DNA from: Chloroflexaceae bacterium
Lineage (GTDB): Bacteria; Chloroflexota; Chloroflexia; Chloroflexales; Chloroflexaceae
Direction of reading: 5' to 3'
Assembly: GCA_025057155.1 (NCBI GenBank)
Contig: JANWYD010000021.1
Location: 20,008-84,007 of the forward strand
DNA: 64,000 bases
Both the position numbers and the translations under genes were made by a program. Numbering within the stretch: the stretch's first letter is position 1; each line of letters opens with the position of its first letter. Below the pieces are notes generated by a model. It was not told where the DNA came from. It did no database searches and was given only the letters and a program-made list of their open reading frames with translations. Positions 28,204 to 59,635 of the stretch are shown piece by piece.

Positions 28204-28576
28204 ACGACGGTATCCCTCACTCGGATGTCGGTCCCGGCGTCTGCTGGCGTTCGGAGGAAGCGTCCTTGCTTCCGGGCCGCGAATGGATGCTCGTAACCGG
28301 GACGCTGCTTTAGTATAGCATACGCGCTCCGGGCCTGCTTTGCGCCAGTGTAAGAGTTGTATATATGAGATGTGGCAGCAACCCTCCGGCTTGCTGCCAC
28401 AGGGGAAATCCGCCTCCCCCACGCCCCGGCGGATAGGGTTCACCTCCACCGAACATGGATTGGAGGGTTGAACCGGCACATGCTCTGCGGACTCCGCGGG
28501 ACATCTGAACAAGCACCTCCTGGCTGGAATTGACTGCTTGCCCCACTCGTGTTACCATCCAATGAAATACATACCA
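28204..28576. other. Intergenic region between clpC and the TPP riboswitch
   Basis: 373 bases between divergent units. On the minus strand TATACT (28312-28317) could be a -10 element for clpC, without a recognisable -35. Nothing else was recognised. Confidence 0.45.
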
Positions 28577-28675
28577 AGCTCGGGGTGCCGGGAGAGCCCG
28601 GCTGAGATTGCGGCCCCCATGAATGCCGCTGACCCGTTGAACCTGACCTGGGTCATACCAGCGTAGGGAAGCGCC
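28577..28675 (+). promoter_or_regulatory. TPP riboswitch (THI element)
   Basis: The thiamine-pyrophosphate aptamer is recognisable by its conserved strings: CGGGGTGCC at 28581, CTGAGA at 28602, ACCCGTTGAACCTGA at about 28632, and GGGTCATACCAGCGTAGGGA at 28651-28670. It precedes the thiB-thiP genes, so thiamine uptake is expected to fall when TPP is plentiful. Confidence 0.95.
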
Positions 28676-28689
28676 AGCAGCCCCCTGTG

Positions 28690-50635: not shown

Positions 50636-52141
50636 ATGCGATCCCCCCCCAATCGCGTCATTGTGGTCGGCGCCGGTCTCGGCGGAATGGCCGCCGCCAT
50701 CCGCCTGGCCGCCGCCGGTCACCAGGTCATTGTGCTGGAGAAGAACGACCGCGCGGGCGGCAAACTCAACCTCCTGCGCGAGGCCGGCTATACCTTCGAC
50801 ACCGGCCCGTCTCTCTTGACCATGCCCTGGGTGATAGAAGAGTTGTTTGCCGCCGCCGGCCGTCGCGCCGCCGATTACCTCACTCTTGAGCAGATCGAGC
50901 CAACCTGCCGCTACCGCTGGCCCGATGGCACGACCTTTAACGCCTGGCAACGCCTGCCCCAACTGATCCAGGAGATCGAACGTCTCAGCCCGCCCGACGT
51001 GCCGGCATTCTTCCGCTTTCTGGCTCACACTGCGCGCATCTACGACGCTGTTGCCGACGCCTTTCTGCTCAAACCCTTCGACGGCCCGCACGAACTGCTC
51101 ACGCCCCGCCTCCTCCGCGACGGTCCGCACATTGACGCCCTGCGCAGCGTTGACGCCGCCGTGCGCTCGTTCTTTCGCAGCCCCTATCTGCGGCAGGTCT
51201 TTAACCGCTACGCCACTTACAACGGCTCGTCACCCTACCTCTCGCCAGCGACCTTCAATGTGATCGCCTACATCGAGTTTGCCGAGGGCGGCTGGTACGT
51301 GCGCGGCGGGATGTACGCCCTGGCCCTGGCCCTGTTGCGCCTGGCCGCCGAACTTGGCGTAGAGGTGCGCACGCGCACCCCTGTCGCTGCAGTTGCGCTT
51401 AACGGCCGCCGCGTGCGGGGCGTGCGTCTGCTCAACGGCGAGGAACTGGCCGCGGATCAGGTGCTGATCAACGCTGACCCGAGTTACGCCTACCGCGCCC
51501 TCATTCCCGGACAGGAGGCCATAGCCGCGCGTTTGGCCCGCCAGGAGATCTCCTGCAGCGGCTTCGTGCTCTTCCTTGGCGTGAACCGGCGCTACCCCCA
51601 ATTGGCGCACCACAATATTTTCTTCAGCCATGATTATCCCGGCGAGTTTGCGGCCATCTTTCAGAAGGGCGTCCCCGCCGCCGATCCGACGATCTACGTC
51701 GCCGCCACTGCGCTGACCGACCCCGAACACGCACCGCCCGGCCATCTCAATCTCTTTGTCCTGGTGAACGCTCCTGCGCTCAACCCGCGCGTATGCTGGC
51801 AACGCGAGGCGCGCCCCTACCGGGATAGCATCATTGCCAAACTGGAACGCATGGGCCTGACCGACCTCAACCGCCATATCGTCTACGAACAGATCTGGAC
51901 CCCGGCTGACATCGCCGAACGGTACAATGCGCCGGGCGGCGCGATCTACGGCTGGGCCTCCCACTCGCCCTTCAGCGCCTTCTTCCGCCCGCCACTGCGC
52001 GCCCGCAACCTCCAGGGGCTCTACTTCGTTGGCGGCGGCACCCACCCCGGAGGTGGCATTCCGCTGGTGCTCCTCTCGGGGCGCGCCGCCGCCGAGCGCA
52101 TCATCACCGACAGCCGGCGCCTGCGCCCTGTGGCTGGATAA
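50636..52141 (+). CDS. Phytoene desaturase (CrtI) family oxidoreductase
   Basis: 501 residues. N-terminal FAD-binding VIVVGAGLGGMAAAIRLAAAGHQVIVLEKNDRAGGK; the CrtI-type YTFDTGPSLLTMPWVIEELF; FNRYATYNGSSPYLSPATFNVIAYIEFAEGGWYVRGGMYALALALLRLAAELGVEVRT; and the C-terminal NLQGLYFVGGGTHPGGGIPLVLLSGRAAAERI. These mark the bacterial phytoene desaturase/carotenoid oxygenase family. It may desaturate phytoene or act on a terminal end (CrtO/CrtP-like); sequence alone does not separate them. The RWY-less, GGWYVRGGM motif is as in CrtI. No crtB is adjacent. Confidence 0.88.
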   Translation: MRSPPNRVIVVGAGLGGMAAAIRLAAAGHQVIVLEKNDRAGGKLNLLREAGYTFDTGPSLLTMPWVIEELFAAAGRRAADYLTLEQIEPTCRYRWPDGTTFNAWQRLPQLIQEIERLSPPDVPAFFRFLAHTARIYDAVADAFLLKPFDGPHELLTPRLLRDGPHIDALRSVDAAVRSFFRSPYLRQVFNRYATYNGSSPYLSPATFNVIAYIEFAEGGWYVRGGMYALALALLRLAAELGVEVRTRTPVAAVALNGRRVRGVRLLNGEELAADQVLINADPSYAYRALIPGQEAIAARLARQEISCSGFVLFLGVNRRYPQLAHHNIFFSHDYPGEFAAIFQKGVPAADPTIYVAATALTDPEHAPPGHLNLFVLVNAPALNPRVCWQREARPYRDSIIAKLERMGLTDLNRHIVYEQIWTPADIAERYNAPGGAIYGWASHSPFSAFFRPPLRARNLQGLYFVGGGTHPGGGIPLVLLSGRAAAERIITDSRRLRPVAG

Positions 52142-52281
52142 CGCTCGCTGCGCCTGCCAGGGCGAAAAACTCTTTACACCTCGCCGAACTGTTCTTCGTA
52201 TCAAAAGGTGCAAGCTCCCGCACCTCAAGCCCATGAAACGCCAGGAGGAGCCTCTATTATCGTTAAGATACGATTAACCTC

Positions 52282-52310
52282 TTGATTCTTGGGCCTCAAA
52301 ATGCTATGAT
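52282..52310 (+). promoter_or_regulatory. Sigma-70-type promoter with no downstream gene
   Basis: TTGATT at 52282-52287 (-35, 4 of 6) and TATGAT at 52305-52310 (-10, 5 of 6), 17 bases apart. Transcription would start near 52317 and run into a gene-free region. Confidence 0.7.
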
Positions 52311-52316
52311 AGCGCC

Positions 52317-52872
52317 GAAGCCTCAAGGGAACAGCAACATACCAGAGCACCTGAACAGTCGAAAACGCGCCGTCGCAAGACAAGCGCTGTCCTCTCACTG
52401 TAAAGAAAAAAGAGCGCACTTGGAGAGGATATGTGTACGTTAGGGGAAATGGAATGCTACCGTGTGGCGTTCCAGGGAGACTAACAGACAAGCGCCGGAT
52501 CGCTGACTGAGCGATCGGATGCTCTGCGAGTTGCGGGATGGCCTCTCCACGCAAAGCTCAACGCGTGTGGACAGGAGGAGCTTGTTACCCACGCAAAGCA
52601 GGAGCCATACCCAAAGGCAAAAGCTGGCACGGCAAAGCGCCACACATGCGTGCGCCGAAGGCAGAGCAGCCCAGGGTCTGCGTGGAGATGAGTAGACTGT
52701 ATCAGATGCTCAACGGGGTCGCTGGACCCTTGAGGCTCAAAAGTGGGAATAAGGTACATGTCGGTAAACTGGCGGTAACTGTACGCACGTCGGTAAGCTG
52801 GCAAGAACACACGTTACTGGGTCATGGTTCATGCAGGGCCGGAGGGCTTGCCTTCCGGCCGTTGCGTTGTTT
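52317..52872 (+). ncRNA. Candidate structured non-coding RNA, about 550 nt
   Basis: No believable coding frame. The predicted RNA starts behind a good promoter and ends at a strong hairpin. A closed multi-branch domain is visible: GGAGAGG (52422-52428) pairs with CCTCTCC (52542-52548) and encloses GTTAG/CTAAC (52439/52481), TGGAATGC/GCGTTCCA (52450/52467, 8 bp) and GATCGCT/AGCGATC (52498/52510, 7 bp). Further on are AAGCTC/GAGCTT (52554/52578), the composite stem CTCAA-GGGTC/GACCC-TTGAG (52709-52734, 10 bp) and GTACA/TGTAC (52754/52780). It lacks the conserved strings of RNase P RNA, tmRNA, SRP RNA or a group II intron domain V. Its identity is unknown. Confidence 0.6.
52837..52860 (+). terminator. 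Terminator of the candidate ncRNA
   Basis: GGCCGGAGGG pairs with CCTTCCGGCC (10 bp, one G-T pair) across loop CTTG, followed by GTTGCGTTGTTT, moderately T-rich. Confidence 0.6.
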
Positions 52873-52921
52873 AGCGCCTTTACCCCTGTCGGGGCGAATG
52901 CCGCTCCGCCCCGACGTCGCG

Positions 52922-52955
52922 CCCCGGCGTTGCACAGCGTTGTGTAGCGCCGGGG
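52922..52955. terminator. Long hairpin between the ncRNA and fabD
   Basis: CCCCGGCG/CGCCGGGG continues inward through TTGCACA/TGTGTAG to a four-base loop, giving about 15-16 pairs. It lies about 100 bases past the fabD stop (minus strand) and may end that operon. Confidence 0.55.
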
Positions 52956-53055
52956 TGTACTGTTGGGCCACCCTGAAACGATTGACCTGCAACGACGGGG
53001 CGCAAGTACCGCGAGCCGCACAGCTTAGCGTCCTCAAACGATTCTGGTCAGCGCG

Positions 53056-54006
53056 CTAATTTATTCTCACCTCGCGCACCTCGTCGGCATTGCCGACGTT
53101 CAACAATCGCGCATCCGGCACGATGCGTCTGATCAGACCGCTCAGAACCTTGCCGGGGCCGATTTCCAGAAAGGTCGTCACTCCATCACGCGCCATCCGC
53201 TGCACCGAGGCGATCCAGCGCACCGGCGCAGTTACCTGCGTCACCAGCTCGCGCTGCACGTCCCCGGGGGCCAGCAGCGGCTCGGCGGTCACATTGGCAA
53301 TCAGCGGGGTATGCAGGGGCCGGATGCTCACACCTTCAAGCGCCCTCGCCATACCTTCGGCCGCATGCCGCATCAGGGGCGAGTGGAAGGCTGCGCTCAC
53401 CTTGAGCGGAACGATCCGCCTGGCACCCCGCTGTTTCGCCAGCCCCCCCGCGTGTTCAACCGCGCGCGTGCTTCCGCTGATCACCAGTTGATCAGGCGCG
53501 TTGTAATTCGCCACCACCACCGTGCTGACACTCTCTGGCTCATCCGCCAGCGCCGCCTCCGTCTCCTGGCAGATCTGCTCCAGGGTTGCGGCGTCAAGCC
53601 CCAGCACCGCCGCCATCCCCCCGGCGCGCGCCTCGGCCATCAGTTCGCCCCGCCGCCGCACCAGCCGCAGGGCTTCGGCAAAACCCAGGCCCCCCCCGGC
53701 AACCAGCGCCGCATACTCGCCAAGACTGTGCCCGGCGACGGCACGGGGCGGCGGTAGCGGCCCGCCCGCGGCGCTCTCCATGGCCCGCAACAGCGCCACG
53801 CTGACAGTCAACAGCGCCGGCTGGACGTTCTCGGTTGCCGTCAACTCCTTCTCAGGCCCTTCAAAGCACAGCCGCGTCAGCGGCAGATTCAGCGTTGCAT
53901 CGGCCTCTTCAAACACCTCGCGCGCCGCCGGATACCGGACGTACAGATCGCGCCCCATCCCTACCACTTGCGATCCCTGACCTGGAAATACCCACGCAAT
54001 GGTCAC
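53056..54006 (-). CDS. fabD: Malonyl-CoA:ACP transacylase
   Basis: 316 residues. VFPGQGSQVVGMG near the N-terminus, nucleophile Ser94 in GHSLGEYAAL, His208 in VSAAFHSPLM and the LEIGPGKVLSGL segment near the C-terminus are diagnostic. It loads malonyl groups onto acyl carrier protein for fatty-acid synthesis. It follows fabH by 7 bases in a yceD-rpmF-fabH-fabD operon; fabG and acpP are not in this window. Confidence 0.96.
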   Translation of the reverse strand: MTIAWVFPGQGSQVVGMGRDLYVRYPAAREVFEEADATLNLPLTRLCFEGPEKELTATENVQPALLTVSVALLRAMESAAGGPLPPPRAVAGHSLGEYAALVAGGGLGFAEALRLVRRRGELMAEARAGGMAAVLGLDAATLEQICQETEAALADEPESVSTVVVANYNAPDQLVISGSTRAVEHAGGLAKQRGARRIVPLKVSAAFHSPLMRHAAEGMARALEGVSIRPLHTPLIANVTAEPLLAPGDVQRELVTQVTAPVRWIASVQRMARDGVTTFLEIGPGKVLSGLIRRIVPDARLLNVGNADEVREVRIN

Positions 54007-58810: not shown

Positions 58811-59635
58811 CTAACCCCTTCCGCCTGGCAGGCCCGGAGGGGCGGCGCCCGGCCGGTCGGGATCGTCGTCCCAGCGCAGCAGGGTTGGCGGATAGCTTAC
58901 CGACATCAGGGTCAACCCATGGGGGGCCGCGGTCGGCCCTGCCGCTTTCCGCTCACCCCCCTCGAGCACCTGCCGGAAGCGGGTCACATCCATCCGGCCT
59001 CGTCCCACCTGGAGCACCGTCCCGACGATCACGCGCACCATATGCTGCAGAAAGGCATTTGCCGCCAGATCCACAGCGATAAGCGCGCGCCCGAAGAGTT
59101 CCGCCTTTTCCAGGCGCGCACGATAGACCGTGCGCACAGTGCTCTTCTGTTCCGCCGACGGCACGGTAAAGGCGGCGAAGTCGTAAGTACCTTCGAGCAA
59201 CGGCAGCGCCTCGGCCATGGCCGCCACATCGAGCGGCTGTTCGACATGGAGGGCCAGGTGGCGCAGGGTCGGCAGCGGCGCCGGATGGTTGTCGATCAGG
59301 TACCGATAGTCGCGCCGCACGGCGCTCCGCCGGGCATGGAACTCGGCGCTCACCTCGCGCGCCGCCAGCACACGCACATCATCGGGCAACAGGGCGTTCA
59401 AGCCGCGCGTAAGCGTTGCGAGGGCGTGGCCCGTCTCGCTGCGCACATTCGCCACCTGCCCATGGGCATGCACGCCCGCGTCGGTACGACCTGCCAGCGT
59501 GAAGCGCCGCCGTTCCTGGGTCAGTTCCTCCCAGGCCCCTTCAAGTGCGCCCTGCACTGAACGGCCCTGGTTCTGATACTGCGAGCCGACGAAATCGGAC
59601 CCGTCATAAGCCAGCAGCAGTGCAATGTTCCGCAC
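58811..59635 (-). CDS. truA: tRNA pseudouridine synthase A
   Basis: 274 residues. The catalytic Asp52 lies in [59 protein letters not shown] and [22 protein letters not shown] are typical. It converts U38-U40 of the tRNA anticodon arm. The GTG start shares one base with the rplQ stop (TAGTG), showing translational coupling. The C-terminal ~20 residues ([19 protein letters not shown]) are disordered and extra. Confidence 0.95.

Follow-up and report, generated by a model that had tools for sequence, protein, structure and literature searches.

We found that a gene-free interval of a Chloroflexaceae bacterium genome (positions 52142-53055, between the stop codon of a crtI-like gene and the end of fabD according to the ORF and gene calls) carries a new family of large structured RNA, which is unrelated to anything in Rfam 15 and whose fold has been maintained by evolution across four families of the order Chloroflexales. 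All positions are those of the window, that is, the whole stretch of 64,000 nucleotides that was analysed, and the features are collected in Table 1. A first-pass annotation, made without database searches, had proposed for this gene-free 0.9-kb stretch a novel structured RNA of about 550 nt with its own promoter and terminator. This proposal is supported, including the absence of genes, and the length holds for the genus of the window; in Roseiflexus-like genomes the core ends near the terminator, so that the RNA is about 420 nt there. A discrete transcript remains inferred, the promoter and terminators being circumstantial evidence for it.

Table 1. Coordinates of the RNA gene, its parts and its flanking genes in the window.
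Feature	Position	Strand	Basis and remarks
crtI-like desaturase gene	50636-52141	+	TIGR02734, 446.7 bits
Operator-like palindrome ATCGTTAAGATACGAT, 5' of the -35 box	52259-52274	+	Present in 47/47 primary copies
Promoter: TTGATT, 17 bp, TATGAT, extended -10 (TG)	52282-52310	+	Consensus scan; aligned and conserved in relatives
Structured RNA gene	52312-52872	+	Homology, folding, covariation; ends approximate (start approximate, end just past the terminator hairpin)
P1, 5' strand GCCTCAAGGG	52320-52329	+	Pairs with 52727-52736; 96.7% of cells paired
5' domain	52367-52543	+	Closing helices 52367-52375/52536-52543 and 52379-52385/52526-52532
Stem and apical stem	52435-52489	+	52435-52443/52481-52489; apical 52450-52456/52468-52474
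13-pair hairpin AGCGCC-GATCGCT/AGCGATCGG-TGCT	52491-52523	+	Strands 52491-52504/52510-52523; most conserved element
3' domain	52544-52688	+	52544-52553/52679-52688, 52556-52559/52602-52605, 52563-52570/52588-52594, 52616-52632/52655-52671; helices 14-20
P1, 3' strand CCCTTGAGGC	52727-52736	+	Pairs with 52320-52329
Variable 3' tail, ~30-nt repeats (GTACGCACGTCGGTAA...)	52737-52830	+	Divergent repeat copies in the window
Terminator-like hairpin GGGCCGGAGGGCTTGCCTTCCGGCC, then GTTGCGTTGTTT	52831-52867	+	-26.9 kcal/mol, z -3.1
fabD	53056-54006	-	TIGR00128

The evidence for a maintained fold comes from folding energy and, above all, from covariation. The plus strand (556 nt) folds at -229.7 kcal/mol, compared with -194.1±6.4 kcal/mol for shuffled sequences (z -5.55). 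In an alignment of 31 sequences from the window's own family, fitted with a model of 105 pairs, 87.8% of the cells are paired and 63 pairs show changes on both sides; cells in which both letters changed and pairing was kept number 382, against 135.8±12.8 after shuffling and 71-108 with slid structures. For the central domain, aligned across the four families and the paralogues, there are 191 such double-change cells (56.7±6.9 when shuffled, 7-21 when slid), with the caveat that this wide alignment, having been fitted to the model, is biased toward it. The plus strand is favoured as the RNA strand, since G-U cells (229) exceed A-C cells (123) when it is read. Many unpaired positions of the core are invariant. 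Conservation and covariation in relatives, the absence of which the first-pass annotation had named as refuting its proposal, are thus both strong, and because the folded shape is maintained across four families, the RNA almost certainly has a function.

The architecture is set by the 10-bp helix P1, which encloses about 420 nt of multibranched core. The letters of this helix differ wholly among lineages, yet its pairing is maintained: the window has GCCUCAAGGG/CCCUUGAGGC, a second clade (the Chloroflexus-like group) has GCCUCGAGAG/CUCUCGAGGC, family f2 has AGCCCUG/CAGGGCU, family f3 has AGCCCUA/UAGGGCU, and Roseiflexus-like genomes (family f4) have CCCCAGGG/CCCUGGGG. Folded separately, the paralogues and the copies of f4 and f2 each yielded the same P1-closed layout.

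Within the core, helices 6-8 of the 5' domain are paired in 83-94% of cells and show both-side changes in 10 of 13 pairs. The stem at 52435-52489 contains a purine-rich symmetric internal loop, with GGGAAA opposite GGGAGA; its lower part is paired in 99.1% of cells and its apical part in 77.9%, 9 of the 14 pairs covary in the window's own family, and both stems also covary in the wide set of four families and paralogues. The adjoining 13-pair hairpin is paired in 99.0% of cells in the own family and in 97.3% in the wide set, where 10 of 13 pairs covary, and the strongest support in the 3' domain falls on 52563-52570/52588-52594 (92.6%) and 52616-52632/52655-52671 (91-94%). Two stems proposed from sequence alone fared less well. 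Of a closed three-stem domain at 52422-52548, the two inner stems are conserved and covarying, whereas the closing stem (GGAGAGG/CCTCTCC) is not conserved, and relatives form 52392-52395/52425-52428 and 52367-52372/52539-52543 in its place. A 10-bp composite stem at 52709-52734, whose 3' strand is part of P1, is likewise not conserved: it is an alternative local pairing, unavailable to most relatives, and for that reason a conserved switch between it and P1 was rejected.

The promoter is sigma-70-like, and a scan of the region found 2 promoter-like sites where 0.3±0.7 were expected. The previously claimed 17-bp spacing held in the consensus scan, and the promoter architecture is kept in 47/47 primary copies. 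Directly upstream of the -35 box lies a palindrome, ATCGTNAA-N4-CGAT, found in all of these 47 copies from four families and in 0/7 paralogues. No second site occurs in the source genome with one mismatch allowed, and most of 10 genomes searched at the same tolerance (up to one mismatch) carry the site at the RNA promoter only. Because the palindrome occurs there and almost nowhere else, it is probably the binding site of a regulator that controls the RNA gene and few others, which is an inference. The same 10 genomes held no other consistent sites, so neither the target genes of such a regulon nor its regulator can be named.

Downstream of P1, the RNA varies by lineage. In the window's genus a repeat-bearing tail precedes the terminator (3.8 copies with a period of 30 in genome G002) and neighbouring genera have related repeats; Chloroflexus copies have a short repeat tail or none and Roseiflexus-like copies have none, with the core kept in both. 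Intrinsic terminators lie 3' of the core in most lineages. The 10-bp terminator hairpin claimed earlier held as a strong hairpin, with a weak T-tract in the window's genus, and the consensus scan did not flag it. Counterparts with good T-tracts are present in Chloroflexus copies and other genera; the distance from P1 to the strong T-tract terminator is at most about 75 nt in Chloroflexus copies, and at most about 30-50 nt in Roseiflexus-like copies. Two further elements lie between the RNA and fabD. The first is a very strong inverted repeat at 52919-52958 (18-pair stem, -39 kcal/mol with flanks, z -6.7), which has a counterpart of different sequence in genome G004 and could be a two-way terminator. 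The second, at 52975-53037, is a dispersed repeat of about 62 bp without a stable RNA fold, with about 14 more copies in the source genome (E<=0.0012) and further copies in two sister genomes.

Against the 4227 families of Rfam 15, the region 52120-53080 gave no match even at E up to 10, and scans of the window, Roseiflexus-like and f3 copies and of a paralogue gave chance matches only (at the gathering thresholds and at E up to 5-10), far below gathering scores. We consider the family new because no known family matches it by sequence and structure. A match to a known family model, which would have refuted the first-pass proposal, was therefore sought and not found, and its statement that the RNA is not RNase P RNA, tmRNA, SRP RNA, 6S RNA or a group II intron held in Rfam. 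OLE, GOLLD, ROOL, raiA, 6S, SRP, group I and II introns and Chloroflexi-1 were all rejected for lack of a covariance-model match. The class A RNase P model had no match in 52120-53080, and the RNase P RNA of the genome lies elsewhere (G000:C20:6961-7064 and flanks). That RNA (L076 1296-1604, minus strand) itself scores just 47 bits against a gathering score of 100, in two pieces, and on this ground appears diverged or insertion-bearing. ARAGORN found no tmRNA in the window, there is no tRNA-like domain, and the genome's tmRNA is at G000:C8 (175.9 bits). Elsewhere in the window, the Rfam scan reported a TPP riboswitch at 28571-28686 (68.3 bits), and ARAGORN called a tRNA-Ala (ggc) at 59321-59396 on the minus strand that is absent from the Rfam report at gathering score. 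A riboswitch or other cis-regulatory leader does not fit, as the next gene (fabD or another) is convergent in the window, in Chloroflexus and at other loci, the exception being genus g12, where a same-strand gene follows. A phage-borne RNA of the ROOL or GOLLD type was rejected since no match occurs in phage or plasmid records; IMG/VR gave one pattern match, without a covariance-model match, and no crtI relatives were found on viral contigs. No frame is open across relatives, so there is no conserved ORF.

The general kind of the RNA, that of large orphan RNAs, has precedents, and the description of a large structured noncoding RNA is met: more than 350 nt, a complex structure backed by covariation and no ORF. 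OLE, GOLLD and ROOL (PMC12286853) are likewise large, elaborately folded bacterial RNAs, several of them of unresolved function, but they belong to a different host group, and GOLLD and ROOL are largely borne by phages or prophages, whereas the present RNA is chromosomal and syntenic. The raiA-motif RNA, or ModT (RF03072; PMC11706538), is also conserved, free-standing and structured, with no obvious riboswitch, yet it is reported mostly from Bacillota and Actinomycetota. The smtA motif, or 'Soda Lake RNA' (PMC11109978), shares a length above 350 nt, a complex covarying structure, a narrow taxonomic range and an unknown function; it differs in being confined to Thioalkalivibrio, upstream of smtA, a comparison made without direct alignment of the sequences. 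The Chloroflexi-1 motif (RF01698; PMC2864571) is a structured RNA candidate of Chloroflexus aggregans, to which the present RNA showed no similarity in the Rfam scan (E up to 10). RNase P RNA and tmRNA resemble it in being single-copy, structured, of 350-400 nt and closed by a long-range helix. We found no report of the present RNA in the literature, with incomplete coverage that did not include PMC5737381. Rfam covers many motifs of the sort that survey presents (224 candidate RNAs).

By DNA similarity, 33 of the 41 genomes of the window's own family contain a homologue, in each case at a single place save for split matches; Chloroflexus islandicus, Candidatus Chloroploca and Oscillochloris are among them, and the RNA is single-copy within this family. 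The search with R1, a covariance model built on the central domain, reached a second family, several genomes of which have two copies, and a wider model (R2) found the RNA in 50 of 82 Chloroflexales genomes and in all four families sampled (35/41 in f1, 4/6 in f2, 1/9 in f3, 10/26 in f4). Outside the order, a sample of 400 genomes of the phylum gave just three weak matches (20-25 bits), and the two that were compared with gene positions sit within an MFS transporter gene and dapA. Since several complete genomes lack the RNA, phototrophs included, it is not essential everywhere. Nor is it specific to phototrophy, as its presence does not track the reaction-centre genes (PF00124): among the 82 genomes, 42 have both, 8 the RNA alone, 21 PF00124 alone and 11 neither. 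The second, diverged copy of Roseiflexus-like genomes (L108 7380-7820, with counterparts at L110, L112, L114, L115, L117 and L119) has its own promoter, lacks the palindrome, carries a conserved upstream element TGCACAGCAAACTGCATNNAATTGCAT and is flanked by a fabG-like/purL pair on one side and, on the other, by a large gene that encodes a cyclic-nucleotide-binding domain.

A crtI orthologue lies 5' of the RNA on the same strand at 16/17 own-family loci, 9/9 Roseiflexus-like primary loci and the f2 loci, an adjacency maintained in three families though other neighbours changed. The two are nevertheless separable, because each occurs without the other: the RNA stands away from crtI, with its own promoter retained, in genus g12 and in genome G059, and a crtI orthologue is present without the RNA in G013, G018, G019 and G028. 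In g12 the RNA (L054 8009-8134, minus strand) adjoins a Mg-chelatase-like gene and an ABC permease, and its promoter is intact.

The locus is likely a free-standing chromosomal gene for a structured noncoding RNA that acts in trans, with both transcription and action in trans being inferences. In this reading, the RNA would be transcribed from its own extended -10 promoter, below a palindrome bound by a dedicated regulator; the 5' and 3' ends of the core would pair in P1 to give a compact multibranched particle of about 420 nt, behind which come a tail that varies by lineage and then an intrinsic terminator; and the particle would act in trans, most likely with protein partners, in some cellular process that predates the divergence of the Chloroflexales families and is not confined to photosynthesis. 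Control by a DNA-binding protein, the partners and any targets are all inferred. Action in trans fits the loci of g12 and G059, where the RNA left crtI and kept its own promoter, but the adjacency to crtI in three families may possibly mean a local role. The more specific idea that the RNA is part of a ribonucleoprotein, as scaffold or regulator, we hold with about half the weight of the trans-acting reading, as its most likely form; it is inferred, with no partner known.

Among the alternatives, the one that survives best is that of a ribozyme or RNA-only assembly, in which the core would catalyse a reaction or form homo-oligomers, as has been described for OLE, ROOL and GOLLD. It is compatible with the size, the closed architecture and the many invariant unpaired positions, and large bacterial RNAs that assemble into RNA-only complexes are on record (PMC12286853). 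Against it, no known catalytic core is found by Rfam, and the RNA is inherited with the chromosome and is not in phage records, unlike ROOL and GOLLD. We regard it as unlikely, and as a different reading of the same gene its weight overlaps with that of the trans-acting gene. A cis-acting 3' element of crtI, a structured 3' UTR which would either stabilise the crtI mRNA or be processed from it, with its role tied to carotenoid synthesis, is favoured by the conserved same-strand position described above. It has little left in its support, since the RNA has its own conserved promoter and occurs without crtI in g12 and G059, the paralogues stand elsewhere, and crtI orthologues persist where the RNA is absent. 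A decoy or sponge, whose repeat tail would bind many copies of a protein or RNA while the core serves as a stable anchor, could draw on the roughly 30-nt unit, variable in copy number within the own genus, and on the related repeats in neighbouring genera; it is most improbable, as Chloroflexus and Roseiflexus-like copies keep the core with a short tail or none, so that the tail is not the main function. Harder still to sustain is the idea of a structured mRNA encoding a small protein, or of an RNA with two functions: the window transcript has open frames of 35-120 codons, but stops or frameshifts interrupt them in relatives, whereas the base pairs covary. Chance folding of GC-rich intergenic DNA, for which strong intergenic inverted repeats such as that at 52919-52958 might speak, is practically excluded by the fold z-score, by covariation far above shuffled and slid controls and by homologues in four families.

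Beyond the trans-acting reading, we consider it possible that this large RNA represents a new class of its own with an active core and serves the Chloroflexales as a ribozyme or as a machine built of RNA alone or of RNA and protein; it would have its own dedicated regulator and, in the Roseiflexus line, a duplicated and differently controlled second version. Few large structured RNAs are known from bacteria, and the majority have proved to do unusual things. This one occurs in an order that includes much-studied hot-spring phototrophs and in cultured organisms (Chloroflexus, Candidatus Chloroploca, Oscillochloris and, by inference, Roseiflexus), and with its clear promoter, borders, structure and duplicated form the gene can be annotated now in existing genomes.
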